A stretch of 64,000 bases of DNA. It comes from Flavisolibacter nicotianae (lineage in GTDB: Bacteria; Bacteroidota; Bacteroidia; Chitinophagales; Chitinophagaceae). Location of the stretch: positions 1-64,000 of the forward strand of contig NZ_RBCI01000003.1 in NCBI RefSeq assembly GCF_003628535.1, given 5' to 3'. Positions 9,950 to 24,257 of the stretch are shown here, piece after piece. Under the pieces are notes generated by a model. The model searched no databases. It was not told the DNA's origin and saw only the letters and a program-made list of their open reading frames with translations. The first letter of the stretch is position 1, and each line of letters begins with the position of its first letter. The position numbers were made by a program, and so were the translations under genes.

Positions 9950-11509
9950 ATGAAAAAGCTTTCACCCCTTTTTCTTTTTCTTGTTACGATCATCCATGCA
10001 CAGACAACCCTTACACCCGACAAACTCTGGGATGGCCTTTTCAAAGACGTACAGCTCACAAGGGCTTTTGGCGACAACAAAACCTTTGTGGACATGGTGC
10101 CGCAATACAAGCCGAACGTGATATTGAAAAAATATGCGGCGCTGAAAAAAAGAGACAGCGCCAGCCTGCGGGCTTTTGTGGTTGCCAATTTTTATTTGCC
10201 CGGCACGCCCCCGGTGCATTTTACGGAAGGCCTTTCGCTGCAGCAGCACCTGGCAGAACTCTGGAATACGCTGACCCGTCCGAAAGACAGCATCCGCAAA
10301 AACAGTTCGCTGCTGCCCTTGCCTGGTTCGTACGTGGTGCCGGGTGGCCGTTTCCGTGAGATCTATTACTGGGACAGTTATTTTACCATGCAGGGTCTTG
10401 CCGTTAGCAACCGCTACGACCTGATCGAGGACATGCTGGACAATTTTGCATTTCTCATTGAAAAATACGGGCACATTCCCAACGGTAACCGCAACTACTA
10501 TTTAAGCCGCTCGCAGCCGCCGTATTTTGCGCAGATGGTTTCCCTGCTGCACGAGAAGAAAGGCGATGCCGTGTATAAAAAATATTTGCCGGCGCTGGAA
10601 AAAGAGTATGCGTTCTGGATGGAGGGAGCCACCACCCTTAAGCCTGGCACTGCACACCGGCGTGTCGTAAAGCTTCCCGATGGAAATGTACTGAACCGCT
10701 ACTACGATGATAACAATGCACCGCGGCAGGAATCCTATCTCCAGGATGTTACCACGGCAAAGGACTACAGGAACAAGGACGGGAAGGCCTTCACCAACCT
10801 GCGGGCCGGGGCGGAAAGCGGATGGGATTTCAGCAGCCGCTGGTTCCAGGATACGCTGCACCTGACTACGATTGAAACAACGAACATCATCCCGGTCGAT
10901 TTGAACTCCCTGTTGTATGCTTATGAAACGGTGTTGATGCAGGCCGAAAAAGCGGTTGGCCGGTCTGCAAAAGCAGAACTGTATGCACAAAAAGCAACGA
11001 AACGCAAGGCCGCTTTGCAAAAATATTGCTGGAACGAAGAGCTCCGCTTTTTCTTCGATTATGATTTCACCGAAAAAAACACAACAGATAAATGGAGCCT
11101 GGCGGGTGTACTTCCCCTGTTTGCAAATGCAGCAAGCAGGGAGCAGGCGGCCAATGTAAAGAAAGTCGTGGAAGAAAAGTTCTTGCGTGATGGAGGCGTA
11201 GTTACATCTCTTTATCGCACCGGCCAGCAATGGGATGCTCCTAACGGCTGGGCGCCCTTGCAGTTTCTGACGGTAAAAGGATTGATGAATTACGGGCAGA
11301 ACGATTTGGCAAAAACAATCGCCGAGCGCTGGATGACCGTAAATGAAAAAGTGTTCAAGGCTACAGGACGAATGCTGGAAAAATACAACGTGGAAAATAC
11401 GGGCCTCGAAAGCGGTGGCGGTGAATATCCCACCCAGGATGGCTTTGGCTGGACCAACGGTGTGTACCTGAAGTTTTACGCGTTGTTCAAGGCAAAAACA
11501 GCGTTTTAG
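9950..11509 (+). CDS. treA: Periplasmic alpha,alpha-trehalase (GH37)
   Basis: A 519-residue protein that hydrolyses trehalose to two glucose. The N-terminal signal peptide (KLSPLFLFLVTIIHAQ) places it in the periplasm, like E. coli TreA. Both trehalase signatures are present: PGGRFREIYYWDSYF near residue 127 and QWDAPNGWAP near 424. The predicted catalytic acid is Asp293 in ESGWDFSSRW and the base is Glu492 in GGGEYPTQDGFGWTNG, matching Asp312 and Glu496 of E. coli TreA. Length is normal for the family. The gene stands alone, after a repeat-rich intergenic region. Together with the GH65 gene it suggests active trehalose use. Confidence 0.95.
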   Translation: MKKLSPLFLFLVTIIHAQTTLTPDKLWDGLFKDVQLTRAFGDNKTFVDMVPQYKPNVILKKYAALKKRDSASLRAFVVANFYLPGTPPVHFTEGLSLQQHLAELWNTLTRPKDSIRKNSSLLPLPGSYVVPGGRFREIYYWDSYFTMQGLAVSNRYDLIEDMLDNFAFLIEKYGHIPNGNRNYYLSRSQPPYFAQMVSLLHEKKGDAVYKKYLPALEKEYAFWMEGATTLKPGTAHRRVVKLPDGNVLNRYYDDNNAPRQESYLQDVTTAKDYRNKDGKAFTNLRAGAESGWDFSSRWFQDTLHLTTIETTNIIPVDLNSLLYAYETVLMQAEKAVGRSAKAELYAQKATKRKAALQKYCWNEELRFFFDYDFTEKNTTDKWSLAGVLPLFANAASREQAANVKKVVEEKFLRDGGVVTSLYRTGQQWDAPNGWAPLQFLTVKGLMNYGQNDLAKTIAERWMTVNEKVFKATGRMLEKYNVENTGLESGGGEYPTQDGFGWTNGVYLKFYALFKAKTAF

Positions 11510-12864: not shown

Positions 12865-13092
12865 ATGAAAAAGGTATTTTCTTCCCTGTTGGCAGTGTGT
12901 TTATTGGCCGCCTGCGGCAACGACAAAACCACGAAATCAGAAACGGAGACAAATTCGACGACAACGGGACCCGGAACCCCGGCCGTTGAAAATGTAAATG
13001 GCAATGTGCCCGATACTGCAAACAGTGTTACACTGAACAAGCCCTTACCCAAGGACTCGTCCAGTGTAAACGATTCTGCTGCCCACCATTAA
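12865..13092 (+). CDS. Small lipoprotein, low-complexity, unknown function
   Basis: A 75-residue protein with a clear lipoprotein signal (VCLLAACGN, Cys17). The mature part is rich in Thr, Ser, Asn and Pro with no hydrophobic core, so probably disordered, and ends in Ala-His-His. The mature sequence resembles the linker of the cytochrome lipoprotein at 23051 (Thr/Gly/Pro-rich after a Cys) but shares no domain. Its stop overlaps by 4 bases the stop of the convergent isomerase gene at 13089, which supports a real end here. I do not recognise the family. Confidence 0.6.
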   Translation: MKKVFSSLLAVCLLAACGNDKTTKSETETNSTTTGPGTPAVENVNGNVPDTANSVTLNKPLPKDSSSVNDSAAHH

Positions 13093-13979
13093 GCGAAGCG
13101 GAAATTTTTCATGTAGGCCGCGTCTTCCCTGGCTGCGACCAGCGGCGTAGTGCCTTCGTAGGCTTCCTGCTCTACGATGTAGTATTTCATGCCGTTTTGC
13201 GCGGCCGTCTTTAAGATTTGCGGGAAGTTGATAGAGCCGGTACCCAATACGACAGAGACATTTTGGGTAGTAGCACCTACGCCTTTTTGCCGGTCTTTCA
13301 CATGGCAAAGGCGGAAGCGGTTAGGGTATTTTTGGAACCAGGCTTCGGGGTTTTCGCCGGCATTCACCACCCAGTAAATATCCATTTCAAAATCCACGAG
13401 GTCTTTGTTCGTGGCCTGCATCATTACATCTTGTGGAAGCTGCCCATCCGTGGGCTTGAAACTGTAATCGTGGTTGTGATAGGCAAAGCGGATTCCGTTT
13501 TTGCGACACACTTCCCCCCGTTGATTAAACGTGTCGGCAGCCCGCTTGTAATCATCCAGACTTTTTTGCGGACCGAGGTAAGGACAAATCAGGTATTTCA
13601 TCCCGATCGCGGCGGCCTGTGCGGCTTTACGCTCAAAGTCCTGGTTGATGTTGCAGTGGCTGGTAATGAATTTCATACCCAGGTCGTCCATGAACTTTTT
13701 GAAGTCGGTATGACTCATGCCCCAGAACATGCCCTGCGGTCCCTCGTAACCTTCCAGTTGCTTATAGCCCATAGAGGCCACTTGCGTCAGTACGCCTTTG
13801 GGATCTTTGGGTAAATCGTCACGAAGGGTATAAAGCTGCAAGCCAAATTCGTTGTTGATGCTGGACTGGGCTTTGGACACCGGGCTGCAGCCCGTGAGGC
13901 CTCCTGTTAGAGGACCCAGGGCGAGACCTGCACCAATCGCCGCAGACAGCCGGAGAAAATCTCTTCGCTGGTAATTCAT
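13089..13979 (-). CDS. Sugar phosphate isomerase/epimerase-like TIM-barrel protein, Tat-exported lipoprotein
   Basis: A 296-residue xylose-isomerase-like TIM barrel. The N-terminus has a twin-arginine motif (YQRRDFLRLS, Arg5-Arg6) followed by a hydrophobic stretch and a lipobox-like LTGC (Cys31), so it should be folded in the cytoplasm and exported to the periplasm as a lipoprotein. Metal-ligand positions typical of the family are visible: FAYHNHDYSF, DFEMDIYW, CHVKD and IVEQEAYEG. It is the last gene of a six-gene minus operon, 18 bases after the subunit-3-like gene. The substrate is probably an oxidised (keto) sugar produced by the neighbouring dehydrogenase, which is inference. It could act as an epimerase, isomerase or hydratase. 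Confidence 0.85.
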   Translation of the reverse strand: MNYQRRDFLRLSAAIGAGLALGPLTGGLTGCSPVSKAQSSINNEFGLQLYTLRDDLPKDPKGVLTQVASMGYKQLEGYEGPQGMFWGMSHTDFKKFMDDLGMKFITSHCNINQDFERKAAQAAAIGMKYLICPYLGPQKSLDDYKRAADTFNQRGEVCRKNGIRFAYHNHDYSFKPTDGQLPQDVMMQATNKDLVDFEMDIYWVVNAGENPEAWFQKYPNRFRLCHVKDRQKGVGATTQNVSVVLGTGSINFPQILKTAAQNGMKYYIVEQEAYEGTTPLVAAREDAAYMKNFRFA

Positions 13980-13997
13980 GTGTACGATCTTTTGAGT

Positions 13998-14627
13998 TTA
14001 TACAATGACTTTATCGCCTTTCTTATAGGGCACACAACCTTCGTAGCGGCCCGGCACCGGCAGGTAGCGAACGGCCTGAGTCATCCCTGGTTTGGACGTA
14101 AAGAAACCCAGGAGGGTTAATTGCTTCATCATCGTGAAGTAATGCGGGGCCATGTGTTGCTTCACATAGCCTTTATTGCCCTTGGTATTTTCTTCTTTTT
14201 CTTTTGCAGACTCTTTGCCGTTGAAGTCTGAAACTTTTTTCTGGTAGTCTTTGGCTTCTTTGTCTACTTCCACCAGCAAATCATGGCGCTGTTGCGGCGT
14301 GATGTTCATAAAGTCCTTGTCGAACTTCTTCTTGCTGGCGTCGTTCAGTTTGCCCAGGCCTTCCATGAAGGCTTTCTGGTCGGCTTCTTCGTAGCAATCT
14401 CTTACCATCACTTTCATAAACTCACCCACATTGGCATCCTTGGCACCAGGAGTGCTGGTGCGGGGCAAAATGGTTTCACCTACTTCGTTCAGGTAGGCAA
14501 TATCCTCCGGTGTCAGCTCCGCAATGCTTTCCGTTTTGGTTTTACAACCGGATAAAAAGGCATCTGCGCCAATGACAGCACCGCCCATCAGGATGCTGAT
14601 ATATTTTACGGCTTCTCGGCGATCCAT
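13998..14627 (-). CDS. Gluconate 2-dehydrogenase subunit 3 family protein (Tat hitch-hiker subunit)
   Basis: A 209-residue protein of the family that forms the small subunit of membrane or periplasmic GMC dehydrogenases. The N-terminus MDRREAVKYISILMGGAV has a twin-arginine pair (Arg3-Arg4), a hydrophobic region and a lipobox-like FLSGC. Features typical of the family: LTPEDIAYLNEVGETILPRT and the C-terminal GFFTSKPGMTQAVRYLPVPGRYEGC. In related dehydrogenases this subunit carries the Tat signal for the flavoprotein subunit, which has none. Here the GMC protein at 16379 lacks a signal, so the two probably form one exported complex. A Lys/Glu-rich insert (residues 125-158) looks like a charged linker. 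Confidence 0.88.
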   Translation of the reverse strand: MDRREAVKYISILMGGAVIGADAFLSGCKTKTESIAELTPEDIAYLNEVGETILPRTSTPGAKDANVGEFMKVMVRDCYEEADQKAFMEGLGKLNDASKKKFDKDFMNITPQQRHDLLVEVDKEAKDYQKKVSDFNGKESAKEKEENTKGNKGYVKQHMAPHYFTMMKQLTLLGFFTSKPGMTQAVRYLPVPGRYEGCVPYKKGDKVIV

Positions 14628-14744
14628 ATGTTTCGTTTAAAATTTTTTGTTTGTTGTTCGATTGTTTGATGCTTTGTAAAAAATGCCAGGAATAAGTTCC
14701 TGTTTCGACATTCGGCATTCCCTGTTCATTGGATCTTCTGTTCC

Positions 14745-16280
14745 TCAGGTCCAGTTCAGGTTGTAACCTTGCCTGTACGTGCGTCGCACATACTGGTTTA
14801 CGTCGTCGAAATTGGTCACTTTCATGTTGGCATTGTCCCAAACCAGTTTGATGCCGCGGCCCGGGAAGCTGAACCCGTTGCCATTTTCTCTCGGCTTGCG
14901 GATGTCGGCAGCACGGATCGCCAGGTTGGCCATCAGCAACAATTCGGTCAGCGGTCCGGCCACTTCAAACGGCGAGCTGACTTCCTTTTTCCCATGACCG
15001 GCAATCGCGGCTTCCACCCATTGGGCGTAGTGACCCTCGGCGCCGCCCGGAACCCTGGGCAGCGGGTTTTTGATGCCAGGATAAGGATACACCACTTCTT
15101 CCACTTCCCGGGCCGGCTGGTTTGGGTTGTTGGAGGGGCGCATGACCTTGGTCAGCTTGGTGCGGCTCGTTGGTAACAGGCGCGGATTGACACCGTAGGT
15201 ACCGCACATCATCTTGCCCTTGGTGCCGATAAACAGCGTGCCGTTGCCACCATCGCCGAACACTTCGTTGGGGCCCAGCTCTTCCGGACGTTCGGGTTGT
15301 ATGCCGCCATCCATCCAGTGTACCGTCACGGGACCTTTTGTTTTAGCTGTTTTTGGGAAGGTAAGTGTCACATGGCTCGAAGGCGGGCAACTTTCGGGGA
15401 AATAACCGCGTTTGAACTCGTCCACGTAAACTGAGCCAACGCTGGCCTGCACATCACTGGCATACCGCAGATCAAGCACACGGAAAGCCACTTCCAGCAT
15501 ATGGGCACCCATGTCGCCCAGGGCACCGGTGCCGTAATCCCACCAGCCACGCCAGTTGAAAGGAACGATCTTCTCTACATAGTCTTTGTAAGGGGCTGTG
15601 CCCAGCCACAGGTTCCAGTCGAGACCCTTGGGCACTTCGGCTTTTTGTGAGGGCCACTGGATGCCTTGCGGCCATACCGGCCGGTCGGTCCATGCATAGA
15701 TGGTATGCACATCGCCAATCAAGCCAGCATCAAACCACTCCTTCATCACCCGGGTTCCGTCGCCGGAGGAGCCCTGGTTACCCATTTGGGTCACGACGTT
15801 GTATCGTTTGGCGGCTTCCGTCAGCACCCTTGCTTCATAAATATCATGCGTCAGGGGTTTTTGCACGTAAACGTGCTTGCCCAGTTGCATGGCTGCCAGC
15901 GCCGGTGCGGCGTGGTTGTGGTCGGGAGTGGAAACGGAAACGGCGTCGAAGTTCTTGGATTCTTTGTCCAGCATCTCCCGCCAGTCTTTGTAATATTTTG
16001 CTTTGGGAAAGGATTTAACGGAATTGGCAGCCCTGCGGTCATCCACATCGCAGAGGAAGGCAATGTCGGCTTTTCCGCTCTTGAAAAAGTTGGCAATATC
16101 GCTTTCGCCTTTGCCGCCTACGCCGATACCGGCAATGAGCAGGCGGTCGCTGGGGGCAACGTATCCCTTGCCGCCCAGGACAAATCGCGGCACAATAAAA
16201 AAGCCTGCAGCGCCGAGCGCCGTATTCTTAATGAATTCCCTGCGGGAATTTGATGGTTGTGATTTTTTTTCCATTGACAT
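14745..16280 (-). CDS. Gfo/Idh/MocA family oxidoreductase, Tat-exported
   Basis: A 511-residue NAD(P)-dependent type oxidoreductase with a twin-arginine leader (SRREFIKNTALGAAGFF, Arg13-Arg14). The Rossmann motif is LLIAGIGVGGKGESD. The family motif normally reading EKP is VQKPLTHDIYEA, so Gln replaces Glu. The C-terminal domain starts near PFNWRGWWDYGTGALGDMGAHML. Exported members of this family keep a tightly bound cofactor, as glucose-fructose oxidoreductase and GH109 enzymes do. ATG 16280 (or 16274, two codons in) is preferred over the longer frame because it starts just before the Tat motif. It lies between the GMC gene and its small subunit, which ties it to the same oxidation route. 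Confidence 0.88.
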   Translation of the reverse strand: MSMEKKSQPSNSRREFIKNTALGAAGFFIVPRFVLGGKGYVAPSDRLLIAGIGVGGKGESDIANFFKSGKADIAFLCDVDDRRAANSVKSFPKAKYYKDWREMLDKESKNFDAVSVSTPDHNHAAPALAAMQLGKHVYVQKPLTHDIYEARVLTEAAKRYNVVTQMGNQGSSGDGTRVMKEWFDAGLIGDVHTIYAWTDRPVWPQGIQWPSQKAEVPKGLDWNLWLGTAPYKDYVEKIVPFNWRGWWDYGTGALGDMGAHMLEVAFRVLDLRYASDVQASVGSVYVDEFKRGYFPESCPPSSHVTLTFPKTAKTKGPVTVHWMDGGIQPERPEELGPNEVFGDGGNGTLFIGTKGKMMCGTYGVNPRLLPTSRTKLTKVMRPSNNPNQPAREVEEVVYPYPGIKNPLPRVPGGAEGHYAQWVEAAIAGHGKKEVSSPFEVAGPLTELLLMANLAIRAADIRKPRENGNGFSFPGRGIKLVWDNANMKVTNFDDVNQYVRRTYRQGYNLNWT

Positions 16281-16378
16281 ACTGGTTAGGTTGGTGAAAA
16301 GAAGACGTGCAATGCCCATCCAAAACGATCAACCGAAAATCCTTCGATTCGCAGTTTGGCATTCCACGCCTTACGGGT

Positions 16379-18061
16379 TTACAAATTCATTTTCTTTAAT
16401 TCCTTCACAGCGTGATCGGCTGCTCTTGCTGTCAGCGCCATATAGGTGAGTGAAGGGTTTACGCAGGAGGCTGAGGTCATGCAGGCACCGTCGGTCACAT
16501 ACACGTTCAAGGCATCCCACATCTGGTTGTTGCCATTCAGTACCGACGTCTTTGGATCGCGGCCCATGCGTGCCGTCCCCATTTCGTGAATTCCCATGCC
16601 CGGTGCATAGTCATTATCGTAGGTCTTTACATCCTTGACGCCTGCGGCATTCAGCATTTCGGCGGCGTCGTTTGCCATGTCCACACGCATTTTGCGTTCA
16701 TTGTCTTTGATCTCCACATCCATGGCCAGTACAGGCAGCCCCCACTTGTCTTTTTTGCTCTTGTCGAGGTACACTCGGTTCTCGTGGTAGGGCAGCATCT
16801 CACCGAAGGCGGTCATACCCATGTTCCACTGGCCCGGTTCGCACAGGGCGTCCTTGTAATCGCCACCGATCGACATTTCGGCAATGTCGCGGCCCCATCC
16901 CTGGCGGCTGGCGCTTCCCTGGTAGCCAAAGCCACGCAGGTAATCACGCTTTTCGCCAAAAAGATTGCGATAGCGAACGACGTAAATACCGTTGGGTCGC
17001 TTGCCGTAAACATATTTGTCATCGTAGCCTTCGACACGGCCGCCGGCACCAACGCGGAAGTGGTGGTCCATCACGTTGTGCCCGAGTTCGCCGCTGCTAC
17101 TACCGAGGCCATCGGGCCATACATCGGTGGCCGAATTCATCAGCACCCAGGCCGAATTCAGCGCCGAGGCGTTGAGGAAGACGATCTTGGAGAAGTAGTC
17201 GTAGGTCTGGTTGTTTTGCGCATCCAGGATGCGAACGCCTTTTGCCTTTTTCGTGTCCTTGTCGTAAATGATTTCTTTCACAATAGAAAACGGCCGAAGG
17301 GTCAGGTTGCCGGTTTTCATGGCAGCCGGCAGTGTGGCCGACTGCGTGCTGAAATAACCACCGAAGGGGCATCCAAGCCAGCATTTATCCCTGTACTGGC
17401 AGGAGCGGTTTTGCTCCGGCTTGGGCTGTGTGATATTGGCAACGCGGCCAATGGTCATGATCCGTTTGCCACCAAAATTCTGCTTAATGCGTGCAGCGAC
17501 GTCCTTTTCCACGCAGTTCATTTCCATGGGTGGAAGGAAGTTGCCATCGGGCAATTGCGGCAATCCATCGCGGTTACCACTGATCCCGGCAAAACCTTCC
17601 GCGTACGTATACCAGGGTTCGATGTCTTTATAGCGAATCGGCCAGTCGATGGCGATGCCATCTTTGGCGTTGGCCTCAAAATCAAAATCACTGTGACGGT
17701 AGCTTTGACGGCCCCACATCAGCGAACGGCCACCCACGTGATAGCCACGGTACCAGTCGAATCGCTTGACTTCCGTGTACGGGCTTTCCTGGTCGTTGAC
17801 CCAGTAGTGGAGGTTGCGTTCGTTCAGGGGATAATCGCGTTTCAGCACAGGGTAGTTCTTGATCATTTCCTGCGTTCTGCCGCCACGGTGCGGGAGCTCC
17901 CAGAGTTCGCGGTTTGCTTTTTCATAGCCTTTGCCGTGCGGGATGTCTTCGCCGCGTTCGAGCATTAAAACTTTGAGACCTTTTTCTGTCAGCTCTTTAG
18001 CTGCCCAGCCACCGCTGATACCGGAGCCAACAACGATTGCATCATACGTATTGTCTGCCAT
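16379..18061 (-). CDS. GMC family oxidoreductase, flavoprotein subunit of a sugar dehydrogenase
   Basis: A 560-residue FAD enzyme. The N-terminal dinucleotide-binding motif is VVGSGISGGWAAKEL (from residue 10), ending in the acidic LERGE. The C-terminal active-site region reads GIHEMGTARMG with His492 and CVNPSLTYMAL with Asn535. This His/Asn pair and the NP-[ST]-LT segment resemble pyranose 2-oxidase and glucoside 3-dehydrogenase large subunits rather than alcohol oxidases. Cysteines around residues 212-230 (NRSCQYRDKCWLGCPFGG) resemble the Cys-rich region of membrane sugar dehydrogenases that may aid electron exit. It has no signal peptide and should be exported with the Tat subunit encoded at 13998. 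Predicted reaction: oxidation of a sugar hydroxyl, C2 or C3, with transfer to cytochrome c. Confidence 0.88.
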   Translation of the reverse strand: MADNTYDAIVVGSGISGGWAAKELTEKGLKVLMLERGEDIPHGKGYEKANRELWELPHRGGRTQEMIKNYPVLKRDYPLNERNLHYWVNDQESPYTEVKRFDWYRGYHVGGRSLMWGRQSYRHSDFDFEANAKDGIAIDWPIRYKDIEPWYTYAEGFAGISGNRDGLPQLPDGNFLPPMEMNCVEKDVAARIKQNFGGKRIMTIGRVANITQPKPEQNRSCQYRDKCWLGCPFGGYFSTQSATLPAAMKTGNLTLRPFSIVKEIIYDKDTKKAKGVRILDAQNNQTYDYFSKIVFLNASALNSAWVLMNSATDVWPDGLGSSSGELGHNVMDHHFRVGAGGRVEGYDDKYVYGKRPNGIYVVRYRNLFGEKRDYLRGFGYQGSASRQGWGRDIAEMSIGGDYKDALCEPGQWNMGMTAFGEMLPYHENRVYLDKSKKDKWGLPVLAMDVEIKDNERKMRVDMANDAAEMLNAAGVKDVKTYDNDYAPGMGIHEMGTARMGRDPKTSVLNGNNQMWDALNVYVTDGACMTSASCVNPSLTYMALTARAADHAVKELKKMNL

Positions 18062-18135
18062 AGAACAGTTTGTCGTTTATTTGGTGAGTTGTTTGTTTCG
18101 TTTCTTTATAAATCAGGTGAACCGCCAGTTGCTGC

Positions 18136-19020
18136 CTACACATCGCACCGGCTGACGCCATCCTTCAGCCAGGCCACTTTTTCCTCGTTGTTCTTCCCTG
18201 TCGGGATAAACTCCTGCGCTACGTATCCTTTAAAGCCCGTGTCCAAAATGGCCTTCATGATGGCCGGGTAGTACAGTTCCTGTGTTTCGTTGATCTGGTG
18301 CCGGCCGGGTACACCACCGGTGTGGTAATGCCCAATAAACTGGTGATTGTTTTGAATTGTCCGGATCACATCGCCTTCATCGATTTGCATGTGATAAATA
18401 TCGTAGAGCAACTTGAAATTGGGCGAGCCCAGTTCCTTGCACAGGGCAACGCCCCACGCGGTTTTATCACACATATAATCCTTGTGATCCACTTTGCTGT
18501 TGAGCAGTTCCATGTGGATGGTGATGCCGGCCTTTTCGGCCAGCGGCAGCACCTGTTTCAGGCCGGCCGCGCAATTTTTCAGGCCTGTTGCATCATCCAT
18601 TCCATTCCGGTTGCCGCTGAACGTAATGACGTCTTTGTATCCGGCCTTGACCATCAGCGGGATGATCTCTGTAAAGTCTTTGATCAGGCGGGCATGCTGG
18701 CCCGGATCGTTCCAGCCTTTGGTTAAACTGTTTTCTCCGCTCGTATAACACATCGAGCTATACACATTGTACTTCTGCAAGGTTGGCCAGTCTTTTGGGC
18801 CCACCAGGTCGATGGCCGAGAAGCCGATTTTCTTGACGGTCTGACATAATTCCTCAATGGAAAGAAAACTGTAGGTCCAAGCGCAAACAGAGTGGTTGAT
18901 ATTTCCTTTCAAGCCTTTGGTTTTTGTAGTGTTCTCACAGCTTGCAAACGACACAGCCGGTGTGGCCGCAACAGCCGTACCGGTCAGCAATAAATTCTTA
19001 ATTAATTTTCTTCTCTGCAT
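18136..19020 (-). CDS. Hydroxypyruvate isomerase-like TIM-barrel protein, exported
   Basis: A 294-residue TIM-barrel protein of the hydroxypyruvate isomerase/sugar isomerase type. The leader MQRRKLIKNLLLTGTAV has an RR pair and ends in a lipobox-like SFASC, so it is Tat-exported and probably a lipoprotein. Metal-ligand motifs are IHMELLNSKVDHKDY, LLYDIYHMQIDEGD, GHYHTGGVPGRHQI and YVAQEFIPTG. The Hyi-like segment QIDEGDVI is well conserved. Its two TIM-barrel neighbours (13089, 21982) are only distantly similar, so the island has three different members of this fold. Position: 11 bases after the permease gene and 74 before the GMC gene. Confidence 0.87.
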   Translation of the reverse strand: MQRRKLIKNLLLTGTAVAATPAVSFASCENTTKTKGLKGNINHSVCAWTYSFLSIEELCQTVKKIGFSAIDLVGPKDWPTLQKYNVYSSMCYTSGENSLTKGWNDPGQHARLIKDFTEIIPLMVKAGYKDVITFSGNRNGMDDATGLKNCAAGLKQVLPLAEKAGITIHMELLNSKVDHKDYMCDKTAWGVALCKELGSPNFKLLYDIYHMQIDEGDVIRTIQNNHQFIGHYHTGGVPGRHQINETQELYYPAIMKAILDTGFKGYVAQEFIPTGKNNEEKVAWLKDGVSRCDV

Positions 19021-19031
19021 GGAAATTCAAT

Positions 19032-20279
19032 TTAGGTCAGGCGGGTTTCAGCCAGGCCGATTTCGGCCTCCGGTTCTGTAATAACTGGTTTCCGGTTATC
19101 CTTAAAGAGTAAAACAAAAAGTATCAGCACGGCAAACGCAATTCCGGCCGGCACCATCCAAATGCCTTTCCAGTTTACCACGTTGTTAACCGTGTACGCT
19201 TCCTTGACGTATCCCGATAGCAGGGTACCGATCCACATGCCGATGCCATAGGTTGCCATGGTGATCATTCCCTGCGCCTGGCTTTGAATGTTGACACCAG
19301 CTTTGCTGTCGGTATAAATCTGCCCGGTCACAAAAAAGAAATCGAAGCAGACACCATGCAGGATGATGCCGGCAAAAAGCATCCACATCCCGGCGTCTGC
19401 ATTGCCGTAACCAAAGCAAAGGAAGCGAAGCGTCCAGGCGATCATGCCGATGGCGATCATCCATTTGACACCCAGCCGGCGGAAGAAAACCGGGATCAGC
19501 AAAATAAAAAGTGCTTCCGAGAATTGCCCGAAGGTCATGTTGCTCGTTGCGTTCTGCATACCCACCTCTGTGAGGAACAGGTTGGTAAAACTGTAGTAAA
19601 ACGAAAGAGGGATACAGATCAGTACCGAGGCAAGAAAAAAGATGGCGAAGGAGCGGTCTTTGAACAGGACAAATGCATCCGCACCCAGGATTTGTTTGAA
19701 GGTGGCTTTTGTGCCTTTTGCCTTCGGTGGTGTATCGGGTAAAAAGAAACTGAGTACGGCAAGGATGAAAGAAGCAACGGCCGCCATCGTGAAGGTGAAG
19801 GCCAGTTGGTCGGTGCCGATCCTGAACACTTTGTCGATCATCCAGCCGGTGGCGATCCAGCCAATGGTACCAAAAACCCGGATAGATGCAAATTCTTTGC
19901 TGGTATCCGTCATTTGCCGGAAGGCAACCGAATTGGCCAGGGCCAGTGTGGGCGCATACATAAGGGAGTACAGCAGCAAAACCCAGTAAAACGAATTGGG
20001 ATTTTGAATGGTGGTGATGTAGTACAACAACAAGGCGCCAACCAGGTGAAGCACGGCCAGCACTTTTTGTGCGGCGAAAAAGCGGTCGGCGATCATGCCA
20101 ACGAAGAACGGCGAAATGATGGTGGCGATCGCCATGGCGCTGTAAGCCGCCCCGATCTGAACACCGCTTGCATGCAGTACCTTATCCAGGTAAGTCCCCA
20201 TCGTCACATACCAGGCACCCCAAATAAAGAAATTCAGGAACATCATGACCGACAACTGCACACGGGTCGTTGCTTTCAT
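19032..20279 (-). CDS. MFS permease, nucleoside:H+ symporter (NupG-like) family
   Basis: A 415-residue inner-membrane protein with 12 predicted membrane segments. The start MKATTRVQLSVMMFLNFFIWGAWYV and the segment GAAYSAMAIATIISPFFVGMIADRFF are typical of the nucleoside:proton symporter branch of the major facilitator superfamily. In Bacteroidota such proteins often sit with Gfo/Idh/MocA and TIM-barrel isomerase genes, where sugars or oxidised sugars rather than nucleosides are likely substrates; that is inference. It is the first gene of the six-gene minus operon, directly behind the divergent control region. A role importing keto-sugar produced in the periplasm would join the exported and cytoplasmic halves of the island. 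Confidence 0.87.
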   Translation of the reverse strand: MKATTRVQLSVMMFLNFFIWGAWYVTMGTYLDKVLHASGVQIGAAYSAMAIATIISPFFVGMIADRFFAAQKVLAVLHLVGALLLYYITTIQNPNSFYWVLLLYSLMYAPTLALANSVAFRQMTDTSKEFASIRVFGTIGWIATGWMIDKVFRIGTDQLAFTFTMAAVASFILAVLSFFLPDTPPKAKGTKATFKQILGADAFVLFKDRSFAIFFLASVLICIPLSFYYSFTNLFLTEVGMQNATSNMTFGQFSEALFILLIPVFFRRLGVKWMIAIGMIAWTLRFLCFGYGNADAGMWMLFAGIILHGVCFDFFFVTGQIYTDSKAGVNIQSQAQGMITMATYGIGMWIGTLLSGYVKEAYTVNNVVNWKGIWMVPAGIAFAVLILFVLLFKDNRKPVITEPEAEIGLAETRLT

Positions 20280-20575
20280 TCGCCAACCGATTTAAAATTC
20301 AGGGAAAGAAAAAGATGAAATTGATATAGCAAGTGGGTAGTAACCATGTCTTGTTTTCGTTCAGCAAATACCAAGTGGTTTTAAATGTACAGCTTTTTGC
20401 AAACGGAGAAATTTTTTTTTGGAACAAAAATTACACATCAAAATCTTTTTGTCTGCAAGATTTTCGGCGATGCAAGAAAAACCCTTCTTAAATTTAGTCG
20501 CTTGAAAACCACAATTTAATCAACGATTGCAACTCCCTCCGGTGTTGACAAAAAAACCATTATTACGAACGAACT
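20280..20575. promoter_or_regulatory. Divergent control region of the sugar-oxidation island
   Basis: 296 non-coding, AT-rich bases separate the permease operon (minus) from the Gfo/Idh/MocA operon (plus). Both operons must start here. No clear TAnnTTTG element pair was found on either strand. An A/T-tract-rich stretch at 20405-20460 could be a regulator target. Confidence 0.5.
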
Positions 20576-21730
20576 ATGCGAAAATTACGAATGGGAATGA
20601 TCGGCGGTGGACCTGGCGCTTTCATTGGCGCGGTACACCGGTCGGCCGCGGCCCTGGACGGCCTTATTGTACTCGTCTGCGGTGCCTTTAGCTCGGATCC
20701 TGAAAAGTCAAAGTCCATGGCTGGCGAACTGGACCTGCCGCCCGAACGCGTCTACGGTTCCTGGGAGGAAATGATTCGGAAAGAGGCCGCGATGCCCGAA
20801 GAGGAACGCATGGAAATCGTCAGCATCGTAACCCCCAATCACCTGCATTTTGGTCCGGCGAAGATGGCCCTTGAAAGCGGCTTTGATGTCATCATGGACA
20901 AGCCCATGACTTTTACATTGGACGAGGCCAAGGAATTAAAAAAGGTCGTTGAAAAAACGGGCCGCTATCTCTGCCTTACCCATACCTATTCCGGTTACCC
21001 GATGATCAAAGAAGCAAAGGAGCAGGTCAGGAGCGGGGCGCTGGGAACGATCCGGAAAATCTTTGTGACCTACCCGCAAGGTTGGTTGTCGCAATACCTC
21101 GAAGCCACCGGCTACAAGCAGGCGGAGTGGCGCACCGATCCGTCCCGCAGTGGCGCGGCAGGTGCCATGGGCGATATTGGTACGCATGCCTTCAACCTGA
21201 CCGAATATGTCACGGGGTTGCAGGTAACCGCGTTGTGTGCACAACTGAATATTGTTGTGGAAGGCCGGAAGCTCGATGATGACGGTGCCGTATTGTTACA
21301 ATATAATAATGGTGCAACCGGTGTGCTGATGGCTTCGCAAATCATGGCCGGTGAAGAAAATAACCTGACCATAAAAGTCTATGGCGAAAAAGGCGGGCTC
21401 GAATGGAGTCATGCGGATGCCAACAGCCTGCTGGTAAAAATGCTGGATGCACCGTACCAAACACTTCGTGCGGGAAACGGGTACCTGAGCGAACTGGCAA
21501 GGCATAACACCCGTACACCGTGGGGCCACCCCGAAGGGTTCTTCGAGGCCTTTGCGAACCACTACCGCAATTTTGCGTTGTGCGTCGAGGCGAGGAAAAA
21601 TGGTGGACAGCCCAAAGCCGAATGGCTCGATTTTCCAACGGTCGATGACGGGGTCAGGGGAATGGCCTTTATCGAAAACGTGATTGCCTCGGGAAAATCA
21701 GAAAAGAAGTGGACAGCGTTTGAAGTGTAA
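20576..21730 (+). CDS. Gfo/Idh/MocA family oxidoreductase, cytoplasmic
   Basis: A 384-residue enzyme with a Rossmann motif right at the start (MGMIGGGPGAFIGAVHR) and no export signal, so cytoplasmic and probably using NAD(P)H. The EKP-equivalent is MDKPMTFTLDEAKEL. The C-terminal domain begins at AEWRTDPSRSGAAGAMGDIG with HAFNLTEYVTGL containing the usual catalytic-domain His. It differs clearly from the exported enzyme at 14745. First gene of the plus operon. Likely role: reduction of a 3-keto or 2-keto sugar, or dehydrogenation of a related inositol or glycoside. The precise substrate cannot be assigned. Confidence 0.9.
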   Translation: MRKLRMGMIGGGPGAFIGAVHRSAAALDGLIVLVCGAFSSDPEKSKSMAGELDLPPERVYGSWEEMIRKEAAMPEEERMEIVSIVTPNHLHFGPAKMALESGFDVIMDKPMTFTLDEAKELKKVVEKTGRYLCLTHTYSGYPMIKEAKEQVRSGALGTIRKIFVTYPQGWLSQYLEATGYKQAEWRTDPSRSGAAGAMGDIGTHAFNLTEYVTGLQVTALCAQLNIVVEGRKLDDDGAVLLQYNNGATGVLMASQIMAGEENNLTIKVYGEKGGLEWSHADANSLLVKMLDAPYQTLRAGNGYLSELARHNTRTPWGHPEGFFEAFANHYRNFALCVEARKNGGQPKAEWLDFPTVDDGVRGMAFIENVIASGKSEKKWTAFEV

Positions 21731-21981
21731 TGCGATAGTTGGATAATTCGACAATTGGATATTGTGACAATGCGATAATTCGATAAGGTGCTAATGGAAG
21801 GTGTGAGTGCAATTTGGTTGTTCTTTTCAGGAGACTGGCAGTTGAATGCCGATTGGATTTCGTTGCGTCGCACATCGCCGTTCGGTCGGTCTGCCGGGAT
21901 TAAGAATATTCATTTTCAAATTATCAAATTATCACATTGAACTTGCCTTTTACAATTTGCTAATATTTATATTCTCTCATC
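21731..21981. repeat. Intergenic spacer with GATAATTxGATAAT-type repeats inside the plus operon
   Basis: 21733-21790 contains GCGATAGTTGGATAATTCG, ACAATTGGATATTG and GCGATAATTCGATAAG, imperfect copies of one unit. A second AT-rich stretch (TTCAAATTATCAAATTATCAC) spans 21915-21935. Nothing coding. Confidence 0.6.
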
Positions 21982-23037
21982 ATGAAGACCATTAAAGGAC
22001 CTGGAATTTTTCTCGCCCAGTTTTTGGGCGACAAACCCCCGTTCAACGACATGAAGTCCATTTGCCAGTGGGCAAAAGACCTTGGCTATCGCGGCGTGCA
22101 GATCCCCACCTGGGATCCCCGTTGCATCGACTTGCAAAAAGCCGCCGAAAGCAAGACATACGCCGATGAACTGAAAGGCATGATCAATGAAATCGGCCTG
22201 GAGATCACCGAGCTGTCCACGCACCTGCAGGGACAATTGGTTGCCGTGCATCCGGCTTACGACGACCTCTTTGATGCATTTGCACCGGACAGTGCAAAGA
22301 AGAACCCAAAGGCCCGTACCGAATGGGCCGTGCAGCAAATGCGCTACGCAGCAAAGGCCTCCCAAAACCTGGGATTGACAGCCTGCCCTTCGTTCAGCGG
22401 TGCATTGCTCTGGCATACCTTTCACCCCTGGCCACAACGACCGGCAGGCCTGGTGGAAGAAGGGTTTAAAGAACTGGGCAAACGCTGGACACCCATCCTC
22501 AATTATTTCGACGAGTGTGGTGTGGATGTAGCCTACGAGATTCATCCCGGCGAAGACCTGTTCGACGGCGAAACCTACGAGATGTTTTTAGCAGAAGTCA
22601 ACAATCATCCCCGTGCCTGCCTGTTGTACGATCCGTCTCACTTTGTGCTGCAGCAACTGGACTACCTTGCCTACATCGATATTTACCACGAACGCATCAA
22701 AGCCTTCCATGTAAAGGATGCGGAATTTAATAAAACCGGTAAACAGGGAACCTTTGGCGGGTACCAGGGATGGTTGCACCGTGCCGGCCGTTACCGTTCT
22801 CCCGGTGATGGACAGGTGGATTTTAAAAGCATCTTCAGCAAACTGACCCAGTACGGCTATGGAAGCTGGGCGGTGATGGAATGGGAGTGCTGCATCAAGT
22901 CGCCGGAGCAGGGTGCCAAAGAAGGTGCGCCGTTCATTAACAGCCATATTATACAGGCAACGGCAAAAGCGTTCGACGACTTTGCCGGCGTGGCCGCCGA
23001 TGAGGCATTTAATAAAAAAGTTTTAGGAATTTCGTAA
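21982..23037 (+). CDS. Sugar phosphate isomerase/epimerase-like TIM-barrel protein, cytoplasmic
   Basis: A 351-residue xylose-isomerase-like barrel without signal peptide. Metal-ligand motifs: VAYEIHPGEDLFDGE, LLYDPSHFVLQQLDY, IKAFHVKDAEF and WAVMEWECC. Large family members of this length, with the segment GWLHRAGRYRSPGDGQVDF, commonly neighbour Gfo/Idh/MocA genes. Likely acts on a keto-sugar, as epimerase, isomerase or hydratase. The cytochrome gene starts 13 bases after its stop, so they are co-transcribed. The spacer to the upstream oxidoreductase is 251 bases and full of repeats, so a separate promoter there is possible. Confidence 0.9.
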   Translation: MKTIKGPGIFLAQFLGDKPPFNDMKSICQWAKDLGYRGVQIPTWDPRCIDLQKAAESKTYADELKGMINEIGLEITELSTHLQGQLVAVHPAYDDLFDAFAPDSAKKNPKARTEWAVQQMRYAAKASQNLGLTACPSFSGALLWHTFHPWPQRPAGLVEEGFKELGKRWTPILNYFDECGVDVAYEIHPGEDLFDGETYEMFLAEVNNHPRACLLYDPSHFVLQQLDYLAYIDIYHERIKAFHVKDAEFNKTGKQGTFGGYQGWLHRAGRYRSPGDGQVDFKSIFSKLTQYGYGSWAVMEWECCIKSPEQGAKEGAPFINSHIIQATAKAFDDFAGVAADEAFNKKVLGIS

Positions 23038-23050
23038 AAATTAAAGACAG

Positions 23051-23485
23051 ATGAAAAAGACGTTGATTTTACTGGCCGCGGTGGCCACTATTTGGAGTTG
23101 TAGCAACAACAAGTCTGCTTCGAATGACAAGACAGGAGACAATGGTGCCGGAACAGGAACGGGCCCGGGTGCCGCCACGACCACAGAAGCGCCTGCAACG
23201 ACAGACGTTTCGCAAAATCCGGATTATAAAAAAGGCCTCGCTCTGGTTGGTCAAAGCGATTGTTTAACCTGTCACAAGGTGGCAGAAAAAGTGGTTGGTC
23301 CTCCCTACCAGGAAGTGGCAGCCCGTTATGCCGGTAAGCCGGGGATCGAAGACTCGCTGGCCAACAAGGTAATCCATGGTGGTTCCGGCAATTGGGGCCA
23401 GGTGCCGATGACAGCGCACCCGCAATTGTCGCACGATGATGCTGTTGCCATGGTGAAATACATTCTTTTATTAAAACAGCAATAA
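23051..23485 (+). CDS. Cytochrome c lipoprotein (single haem)
   Basis: A 144-residue protein with lipobox (TIWSC, Cys17), then a 35-residue Gly/Thr/Ala/Pro linker, then a class I cytochrome c domain. The haem motif is CLTCH (Cys71, Cys74, His75), followed by KVVGPPYQEVAARY. The likely axial Met is Met120 in QVPMTAHPQLS. Domains of this type sit near exported sugar dehydrogenases and accept their electrons. It lies in the same operon as the DUF1080 gene (one-base overlap). The natural donor is the GMC/subunit-3 complex of the divergent operon, which is inference. Confidence 0.92.
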   Translation: MKKTLILLAAVATIWSCSNNKSASNDKTGDNGAGTGTGPGAATTTEAPATTDVSQNPDYKKGLALVGQSDCLTCHKVAEKVVGPPYQEVAARYAGKPGIEDSLANKVIHGGSGNWGQVPMTAHPQLSHDDAVAMVKYILLLKQQ

Positions 23486-24207
23486 TGCACAAATTGTCAT
23501 TCGTTGTGGCCGCAGCGGCGCTTTTGTCCTGCTCCACCCAAAACAAAACAACCATGCAATCGACCGGGAACAACACGGCTGCAAACGAAGCCGGATGGGT
23601 TTCGCTTTTTGACGGAAAGACAACCAGCGGATGGCACACCTATAACAAAACCGGTGTTGGCAGCGCCTGGAAAGCCGAAGACGGCGTGCTGCATCTCGAT
23701 GCCAAGGGAAAAAAAGAAGGACTGCAGGGCGGTGACATTGTTACCGACCAGGAGTTTGAAAACTTTCACCTGAAATACGACTGGAAGATTGCGCCCAATG
23801 GCAACAGCGGTGTGATTTTTTATTCCAAGGAAGACCCGCAATACAGCGCCATGTGGAATACGGGCCCGGAAATGCAGGTGCTGGATAACAACGGTCACCC
23901 GGATGCAAAAATCATCAAGCACCGCGCCGGTGATCTTTACGACCTCATTACAGCGAAAGAAGCCGTAAAGCCGGTTGGTGAATGGAACACGGCCGAGATC
24001 GTGGCCAACAAAGGCAAGCTGGATTTTTACCTGAACGGCGTGCACACCCTGTCAACCACCATGTGGGACGACAACTGGTACCAGATGATTGCGAAAAGCA
24101 AGTTCAAGGACATGCCGGCTTTTGGCCGCAGCAAATCGGGCCGCATCGGCTTGCAGGACCACGGCGACGAAGTCTGGTTCCGGAACATCAAGCTCAAGAC
24201 CTTGTAA
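23485..24207 (+). CDS. DUF1080 lipoprotein (3-keto-disaccharide hydrolase/lyase-like)
   Basis: A 240-residue lipoprotein (lipobox AALLSC, Cys16) with a concanavalin-like jelly-roll DUF1080 domain. Family signatures: GWVSLFDGKTTSGWHTY, FHLKYDWKIAPNGNSGVIF, PEMQVLDNNGHPDAK and RIGLQDHGDEVWFRNIKLK at the C-terminus. The family is named 3-keto-disaccharide hydrolase, and related proteins have been reported to cleave 3-keto-glycosides. It starts on the last base of the cytochrome stop codon (TAATG), so the two are translationally coupled. A periplasm-facing enzyme here fits cleavage of an oxidised disaccharide outside the inner membrane. Confidence 0.9.
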   Translation: MHKLSFVVAAAALLSCSTQNKTTMQSTGNNTAANEAGWVSLFDGKTTSGWHTYNKTGVGSAWKAEDGVLHLDAKGKKEGLQGGDIVTDQEFENFHLKYDWKIAPNGNSGVIFYSKEDPQYSAMWNTGPEMQVLDNNGHPDAKIIKHRAGDLYDLITAKEAVKPVGEWNTAEIVANKGKLDFYLNGVHTLSTTMWDDNWYQMIAKSKFKDMPAFGRSKSGRIGLQDHGDEVWFRNIKLKTL

Positions 24208-24225
24208 ACTGTTATTTTTTACAGC

Positions 24226-24257
24226 AAAGGCAGCACATCAATGTGCTGCCTTTTTTT
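24226..24257 (+). terminator. Terminator of the plus sugar-oxidation operon
   Basis: AAAGGCAGCACAT (24226-24238) pairs with ATGTGCTGCCTTT (24241-24253), followed by further T residues to 24257. Confidence 0.92.

Follow-up and report, generated by a model that had tools for sequence, protein, structure and literature searches.

A gene island of ten open reading frames (ORFs) lies in a 64,000-nucleotide stretch of Flavisolibacter nicotianae DNA (contig NZ_RBCI01000003.1, positions 1 to 64,000; this whole stretch is called the window below). The genes are arranged in two divergent blocks, six on the minus strand (13089–20279) and four on the plus strand (20576–24207), around a 296-base spacer. 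In the order of transcription, the minus block reads MFS, TIM2, GMC, GFOx, SUB3 and TIM1, and the plus block GFOc, HYD, CYTC and D1080 (Table 1). The ORFs agree with a preliminary description of this DNA, in which two divergent operons of ten genes were recognized; the island start given there (13089) also stands, but the end (24257) does not, since the last gene stops at 24207. The protein families named in that description were recovered as well in a family search of all ten proteins, with Pfam matches above the cut-offs for three AP_endonuc_2, Gluconate_2-dh3, two Gfo/Idh/MocA, GMC N and C, Nuc_H_symport, cytochrome c and 3keto-disac_hyd (PF06439), and no regulator family is present among the Pfam families of the ten genes. 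By comparing families, residues, leaders and gene neighbourhood, we have arrived at the reading, to which we give a probability of about 0.8, that the island encodes a two-compartment oxidation–elimination–hydration–reduction pathway for glycosides, where the individual reactions and the way they run, the substrates and the species that is transported are all predicted from this comparison.

Table 1. Features of the island and their predicted roles.
Feature	Position	Strand	Description
TIM1	13089..13979	-	exported TIM barrel (twin-arginine, possible lipobox), probable 3-keto-beta-glucoside 1,2-lyase (beta-eliminase)
SUB3	13998..14627	-	gluconate 2-dehydrogenase subunit 3-like twin-arginine (Tat) carrier of the GMC enzyme, possible lipoprotein; PF13618, 127.7 bits
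GFOx	14745..16319	-	Tat-exported Gfo/Idh/MocA, relative of periplasmic glycoside 3-dehydrogenase BT2158, optional part
GMC	16379..18061	-	flavoenzyme, probable glycoside 3-dehydrogenase catalytic subunit, without own leader; PF00732/PF05199
TIM2	18136..19020	-	exported TIM barrel, hydroxypyruvate isomerase / ketose 3-epimerase / YcjR group
MFS	19032..20279	-	nucleoside:H+ symporter-like permease, probable importer of cleaved keto-sugar; PF03825, 405.6 bits
divergent spacer	20280..20575		upstream region common to both operons; sequence read
GFOc	20576..21730	+	cytosolic Gfo/Idh/MocA, probable 3-keto-glucose reductase
HYD	21982..23037	+	cytosolic TIM barrel, probable 2-hydroxy-3-keto-glucal hydratase
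CYTC	23051..23485	+	exported mono-haem cytochrome c, probable electron acceptor of the GMC enzyme; PF00034
D1080	23485..24207	+	DUF1080/PF06439 lipoprotein, probable 3-keto-glycoside lyase and/or hydratase

Twin-arginine leaders start TIM1, TIM2, SUB3 and GFOx, and CYTC and D1080 have short hydrophobic N-terminal leaders with a cysteine at the leader end, while the leader scan found none at the N-termini of GMC, GFOc or HYD. Both folds, the TIM barrel and Gfo/Idh, are thus present in exported (minus-block) and cytoplasmic (plus-block) versions, as had been noted earlier; the genome contains one tatC gene. The leader rule, a simple hydrophobicity and motif scan, was also applied to homologues matched over more than half of the length (identity cut-offs: TIM1 22%, TIM2 30%, DUF1080 25%, HYD 45%, GFOc 40%, GMC 45%, SUB3 25%, CYTC 30%, GFOx 50%, MFS 30%) in loci of the host's bacterial family, in a named-genome set consisting of the best 80 of at least 593 matches to the Agrobacterium tumefaciens hydratase AtHYD, and on plasmids; Halomonas L049 was searched for island genes but stands outside these groups. 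Every SUB3 homologue in the family (55/55) has a twin-arginine leader, and TIM1-like proteins have a leader in 38/39 family, 17/19 named-genome and 7/8 plasmid cases, as against HYD passes in 2/58, 3/80 and 1/11. The same rule passed 2/7 plasmid GMC, 7/145 GFOc and 2/34 MFS ORFs, with start codons as called, and failed 4/55 family TIM2 as well as 1/39 family, 2/19 named-genome and 1/8 plasmid TIM1 proteins. Among the longest ORFs of the 149 HYD proteins, 34 have an upstream extension of at least 8 residues and six of these satisfy the hydrophobicity rule; because the extension stands before the conserved start (aligned residue 1) in all six, we have read these as start-codon artefacts and rejected an exported HYD. 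The split of the pathway between compartments, which the preliminary description had proposed for this island, is therefore borne out, and more generally than claimed. In A. tumefaciens locus L127, the AtOGE counterpart begins MKTLKSKFVKMAFAVGLAAGIANPVLADD, a start that looks like a Sec-type leader.

In the literature searched, mostly titles, we found no statement of an exported eliminase combined with a cytosolic glycal hydratase, and we make no claim of priority. The words 'periplasm' and 'signal peptide' are absent from the main text of PMC10628242, although a TAT-pathway signal protein is mentioned there. Price et al. already assign the oxidation of lactose and the cleavage by DUF1080 to the periplasm of Caulobacter, and they suggest a transporter, epimerases and a reductase for processing the keto-sugar (PMC9007349).

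At the cytosolic end, HYD matches the 2-hydroxy-3-keto-glucal hydratase structure 8ro4 over residues 1–350 of 351 with an E value of 4e-161. It thus shows the full-length, orthologue-level homology and the cytosolic location, as judged by the lack of a leader, that characterize an AtHYD-type protein, and it is the single match in its genome. HYD is therefore probably a 2-hydroxy-3-keto-glucal hydratase, and the isomerization inside the cell that had been suggested earlier gives way to hydration. GFOc is 46% identical to the Gfo protein adjoining the hydratase in L127, and a GFOc-type gene stands on the HYD strand, less than 600 bases away, in 55/58 family, 76/80 named-genome and 8/11 plasmid loci. 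This pairing with a cytosolic reductase fits glycal import without proving it. Since a GMC gene of at least 45% identity occurs within the flank of only 10 of the same 80 named-genome loci, the HYD–GFOc pair is a broader module than the GMC cassette. In three loci (L062, L063 and L066, from Azospirillum, Sinorhizobium meliloti pSymB and Paracoccus AK26), the hydratase and Gfo/Idh genes adjoin xylA (with xylB in two of the three) and a GMC match is absent; these are perhaps a pentoside version.

The same proteins could also be read as a polyol or inositol pathway, with GFOc as an inositol-type dehydrogenase, HYD and TIM1 as IolE-like inosose dehydratases and TIM2 as a hydroxypyruvate isomerase, since HYD, TIM1 and the two Gfo proteins do obtain scores with the NCBIfam IolE/IolG models. 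These scores are, however, 70 and 44 against a cut-off of 290 for IolE and 50 and 57 against 355 for IolG, and the full-length match of HYD is to a protein of other function, making this reading very improbable. The labels IolE/IolG and hydroxypyruvate isomerase were rejected because all scores fall far under the curated cut-offs, and so was levoglucosan dehydrogenase for GFOc (100 bits against 650, NF052479).

Structure predictions and fold searches covered the TIM barrels, and here the labelled structures closest to TIM1 are 3-keto-glucoside lyases. Although TIM1 is only 23% identical to the OGE protein of L127, it keeps all five AtOGE active-site residues, comprising the metal ligands and the catalytic His (alignment A1, made from 16 of the 19 named-genome TIM1-like proteins and the window protein; L170, L178 and L194 were left out). 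TIM1 is thus probably a 3-keto-beta-glucoside lyase of the AL1/BT1/AtOGE type with elimination as its predicted reaction, and the term 'isomerase-like', used earlier for all three TIM barrels, holds as a fold label but probably misnames what two of them do. A C-glycoside or flavonoid-glycoside deglycosylation island, instead of a general O-glycoside one, would be another reading, but the CGE beta-subunit family is absent from the Pfam matches of the ten proteins and TIM1 has the HNH of AtOGE, an enzyme reported to be O-glycoside-specific (PMC10628242), so that we consider this version improbable.

D1080 scores 178.9 bits against PF06439 (3-keto-disaccharide hydrolase), as compared with a gathering score of 26.8, and has 14 distinct solved relatives, including 8rr2 and 8tda. 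His226 of its QDHGD motif is conserved to at least 97% in an alignment of 60 sequences that includes the window protein. We have not accepted the Pfam name as proof of hydrolysis. According to PMC13273386, the H275N variant of a B. thetaiotaomicron 3-keto-O-glycoside lyase is hydration-deficient; because the hydration activity can be removed by one change, 'hydrolysis' by this lyase consists of two steps. We think that this lyase is the DUF1080 protein BT2157, which is our own inference and is stated by no source, and we would guess, with the numbering unconfirmed, that His226 is the counterpart of H275.

These observations bear directly on the version given in the preliminary description, namely DUF1080 hydrolysis in the periplasm, import of 3-keto-glucose, isomerization and reduction inside, and TIM barrels acting as epimerases. 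Price et al. do propose the Caulobacter DUF1080 protein as a 3'-ketolactose hydrolase and cite BT2157 as a 3-ketotrehalose hydrolase (PMC9007349), TIM2 is epimerase/isomerase-like, and elimination plus hydration equals hydrolysis in net chemistry. Nevertheless, HYD matches a crystallized glycal hydratase along its full length, TIM1 is closest to lyases, and the B. thetaiotaomicron enzyme loses hydration by H275N alone, so that cleavage by a hydrolase alone is not supported and we regard this version as unlikely.

For the oxidation step, GMC contains the FAD motif and the catalytic His/Asn pair, with His492 and Asn535 aligning with fructose dehydrogenase, and the motifs are kept in 116/121 and 104/121 relatives. 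At position 221, it has a three-cysteine CX5CX3C site, which we take to be a 3Fe-4S cluster site; it likewise aligns with fructose dehydrogenase and is found in 112/121 relatives. GMC is 71% identical to the GMC protein adjoining the hydratase in L127. The partners of a LacABC/GlycDH-type enzyme are also present, a PF13618 SUB3 with a twin-arginine leader and a c-type cytochrome, whose haem motif CLTCH stands at residue 71 (CxxCH in 71/72 homologues). GMC, SUB3 and CYTC therefore probably form a glycoside 3-dehydrogenase, as had been proposed, with C3 oxidation as the predicted reaction. GFOx matches structure 8tdf (E 4e-94) and is a variable part, present in 15/60 family loci, between GMC and SUB3 in five of them and elsewhere in ten.

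Taken together, these data lead to the following proposed route. On the outer side of the inner membrane, the GMC flavoenzyme, exported by way of Tat-borne SUB3, would oxidize the sugar at C3 and pass its electrons to the CYTC lipoprotein, and GFOx would probably perform or reverse the same reaction using a bound cofactor. The 3-keto-glycoside would then be split outside by elimination, by TIM1 on beta-linked substrates and probably by the DUF1080 lipoprotein on alpha-linked ones. The MFS permease would import the resulting 2-hydroxy-3-keto-glycal or, if D1080 hydrates it outside first, 3-keto-glucose. Inside, HYD would add water and GFOc would yield an ordinary hexose by reducing the 3-keto-sugar. 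TIM2, epimerase/isomerase-like by fold and sequence comparison with the hydroxypyruvate isomerase, ketose 3-epimerase and YcjR group, probably epimerizes or isomerizes a keto intermediate outside. The cleavage outside the inner membrane, permease uptake and reduction inside that had been suggested earlier are thus supported by homology.

As to distribution, 117 family genomes were compared; 83 of them have GMC and 78 have HYD, each HYD genome also having GMC. Sixty family loci, drawn from 60 of the 83 GMC-positive genomes, were picked for a GMC or hydratase match (L082 and L097 at a GMC gene away from the hydratase, L125 and L126 at a hydratase without adjoining GMC). After dropping matches below 50% identity for GFOx, 35% for TIM1, 40% for DUF1080 and 45% for GMC, the genes were counted as HYD 58, GMC 58, GFOc 58, TIM2 55, SUB3 53, D1080 53, CYTC 51, TIM1 37, MFS 24 and GFOx 15, and all nine genes apart from GFOx occur together in 17/60. 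GMC, the hydratase and the cytosolic Gfo/Idh are combined in 55/60 loci, 51 of these being divergent as in the window; because of the way the loci were picked, the 51/55 figure speaks for the arrangement, not for its frequency. The divergent arrangement is beyond chance. The complete set of ten genes occurs in Pontibacter litorisediminis (L134), and Caulobacter L157 and plasmids of Hymenobacter, Xanthomonas sacchari, Palleronia, Paracoccus and Sphingomonas contain versions of the cassette. With GMC and hydratase together in 78/117 family genomes and cassette versions in Proteobacteria, the earlier word 'unusual' is not supported. In Palleronia and Paracoccus (L045, L048), annotated sugar ABC transporter genes stand near the hydratase in place of the MFS permease, and in L127 four ORFs (497, 320, 322 and 340 amino acids) stand directly upstream of the hydratase.

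GMC-positive family genomes have a median of 4 GMC matches (range 1–12), while two full-length HYD genes are found in only one of the 78 HYD genomes (G084), the other extras being a partial copy in G081 and copies split in two pieces in G041 and G054. In the genome studied here, there are further GMC genes (72, 52, 48 and 31% identity) along with six more DUF1080 genes of full size. These gene counts, one HYD against several GMC per genome, suggest that several periplasmic oxidation sets feed one common cytosolic end. Tandem arrays of 2–6 GMC genes within the cassette occur in 23/60 family loci (for example L095, L110, L100 and L123, with copies 47–75% identical to window GMC), and in L076, L077, L079 and L098 a 31–33% GMC gene and a 53–56% exported Gfo/Idh gene lie in the spacer between the operons. 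One GMC homologue match (G080:C5:175561-177237) has one in-frame TAG. In the F. nicotianae genome, two contigs end in a DUF1080 fragment (C7:10-126 and C3:176501-176617); both fragments cover model positions 1–41 and are perhaps a repeated gene split by assembly.

Several points weigh against the proposed pathway. Strains deleted for BT2157 or BT2158 grew on raffinose-family sugars without a defect (PMC11501099), and none of ten Pedobacter DUF1080 genes had a lactose phenotype (PMC9007349). TIM1 and MFS are absent from many family loci (present in 37/60 and, inside the fetched locus, 24/60), and TIM2 adjoins GMC in only 1/10 and 3/7 GMC loci outside the family set. GFOx scores 478.4 bits with the NCBIfam equivalog BT_2158_fam (NF058561), and because this is below the cut-off of 750, it is a relative, not a member, of these glycoside 3-dehydrogenases. 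A more far-reaching version joins three elements: a reactive unsaturated sugar handed across the inner membrane (elimination outside, hydratase inside, MFS as the 2-hydroxy-3-keto-glycal importer), several front ends (at least four further GMC and six DUF1080 genes) feeding one hydratase–reductase hub, and TIM2 as an exported 3-keto-glycoside epimerase that would widen the range to C2 or C4 epimers. We offer this combination tentatively, as it may well not hold in full.

The earlier term 'a disaccharide' is too narrow for the substrate, because the substrates published for relatives include lactose, raffinose, salicin and phlorizin (PMC9007349 and PMC10628242). A GH37 trehalase gene at 9950–11509, 1.6 kb off the island, led us to consider trehalose; as a specific substrate it was found weak, since, of three genomes inspected over a longer distance, one (L215) has a trehalase in the neighbourhood of the island, and 0/60 family loci have a match, though many of these end too close to the island to tell. 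In G004, a genome of the same genus, the trehalase and a DUF72 neighbour likewise lie close to the island. On the Hymenobacter volaticus plasmid L047, SusC/SusD, GH65 and carbohydrate kinase genes stand upstream of the cassette, a possible hint at an alpha-glucoside substrate.

The kind of pathway is already known and widespread; what the comparison adds is a concrete, testable route in place of an annotation as 'isomerases and oxidoreductases'. It also offers a likely fate for the keto-sugar left open by Price et al. in Caulobacter and Bacteroidetes lactose use (PMC9007349). If the compartment split is true, there are clear candidate genes with which to ask how an unsaturated keto-sugar is transported.

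Among the known systems, the Caulobacter lacABC/DUF1080 lactose cluster and its Bacteroidetes kin resemble the window in having GMC, subunit 3, DUF1080, a transporter, two 'epimerases' and a reductase in one locus (PMC9007349). One 'epimerase' of Caulobacter L157 corresponds to HYD and one is TIM1-like; unlike the window, L157 gave no match at E 1e-6 for TIM2, the cytochrome c or the exported Gfo/Idh protein, and its DUF1080 proteins are only 25–27% identical. The Bacillus smithii LgdA/B1/B2/C levoglucosan pathway (PMC7676230) likewise proceeds by oxidation, elimination, hydration and reduction with four enzymes, but starts with a levoglucosan dehydrogenase, and GFOc falls well short of the NCBI model for that enzyme. 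For A. tumefaciens, the same four-step chemistry is given by Bitter et al. 2023 (PMC10628242), who call the hydration step preliminary. Its GlycDH/TAT-AtOGE-AtHYD-Gfo operon (L127) is like the window in GMC (71%), HYD (65%), GFOc (46%), SUB3 (37%) and TIM1/OGE (23%), while the window adds cytochrome c, DUF1080, TIM2, exported Gfo/Idh and MFS, 0/5 of which are matched in L127 at E 1e-6. On the Bacteroides side, the BT2156–BT2159 and Alistipes AL1 enzymes (8tcd, 8tct, 8tdf) are relatives of window TIM1, the DUF1080 protein and GFOx, the last being under the BT_2158 cut-off. To our knowledge, BT2156–BT2159 is without a GMC flavoenzyme, cytochrome c, cytosolic hydratase and reductase, all of which the window adds. 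The same four-step chemistry is reportedly used by Bacteroides (Nasseri et al. 2024, Nature, and a 2024 paper in Angew. Chem.). The island suggests that the Agrobacterium and Bacteroides versions can be parts of one larger system, which is common in the host's bacterial family and present in at least two phyla.

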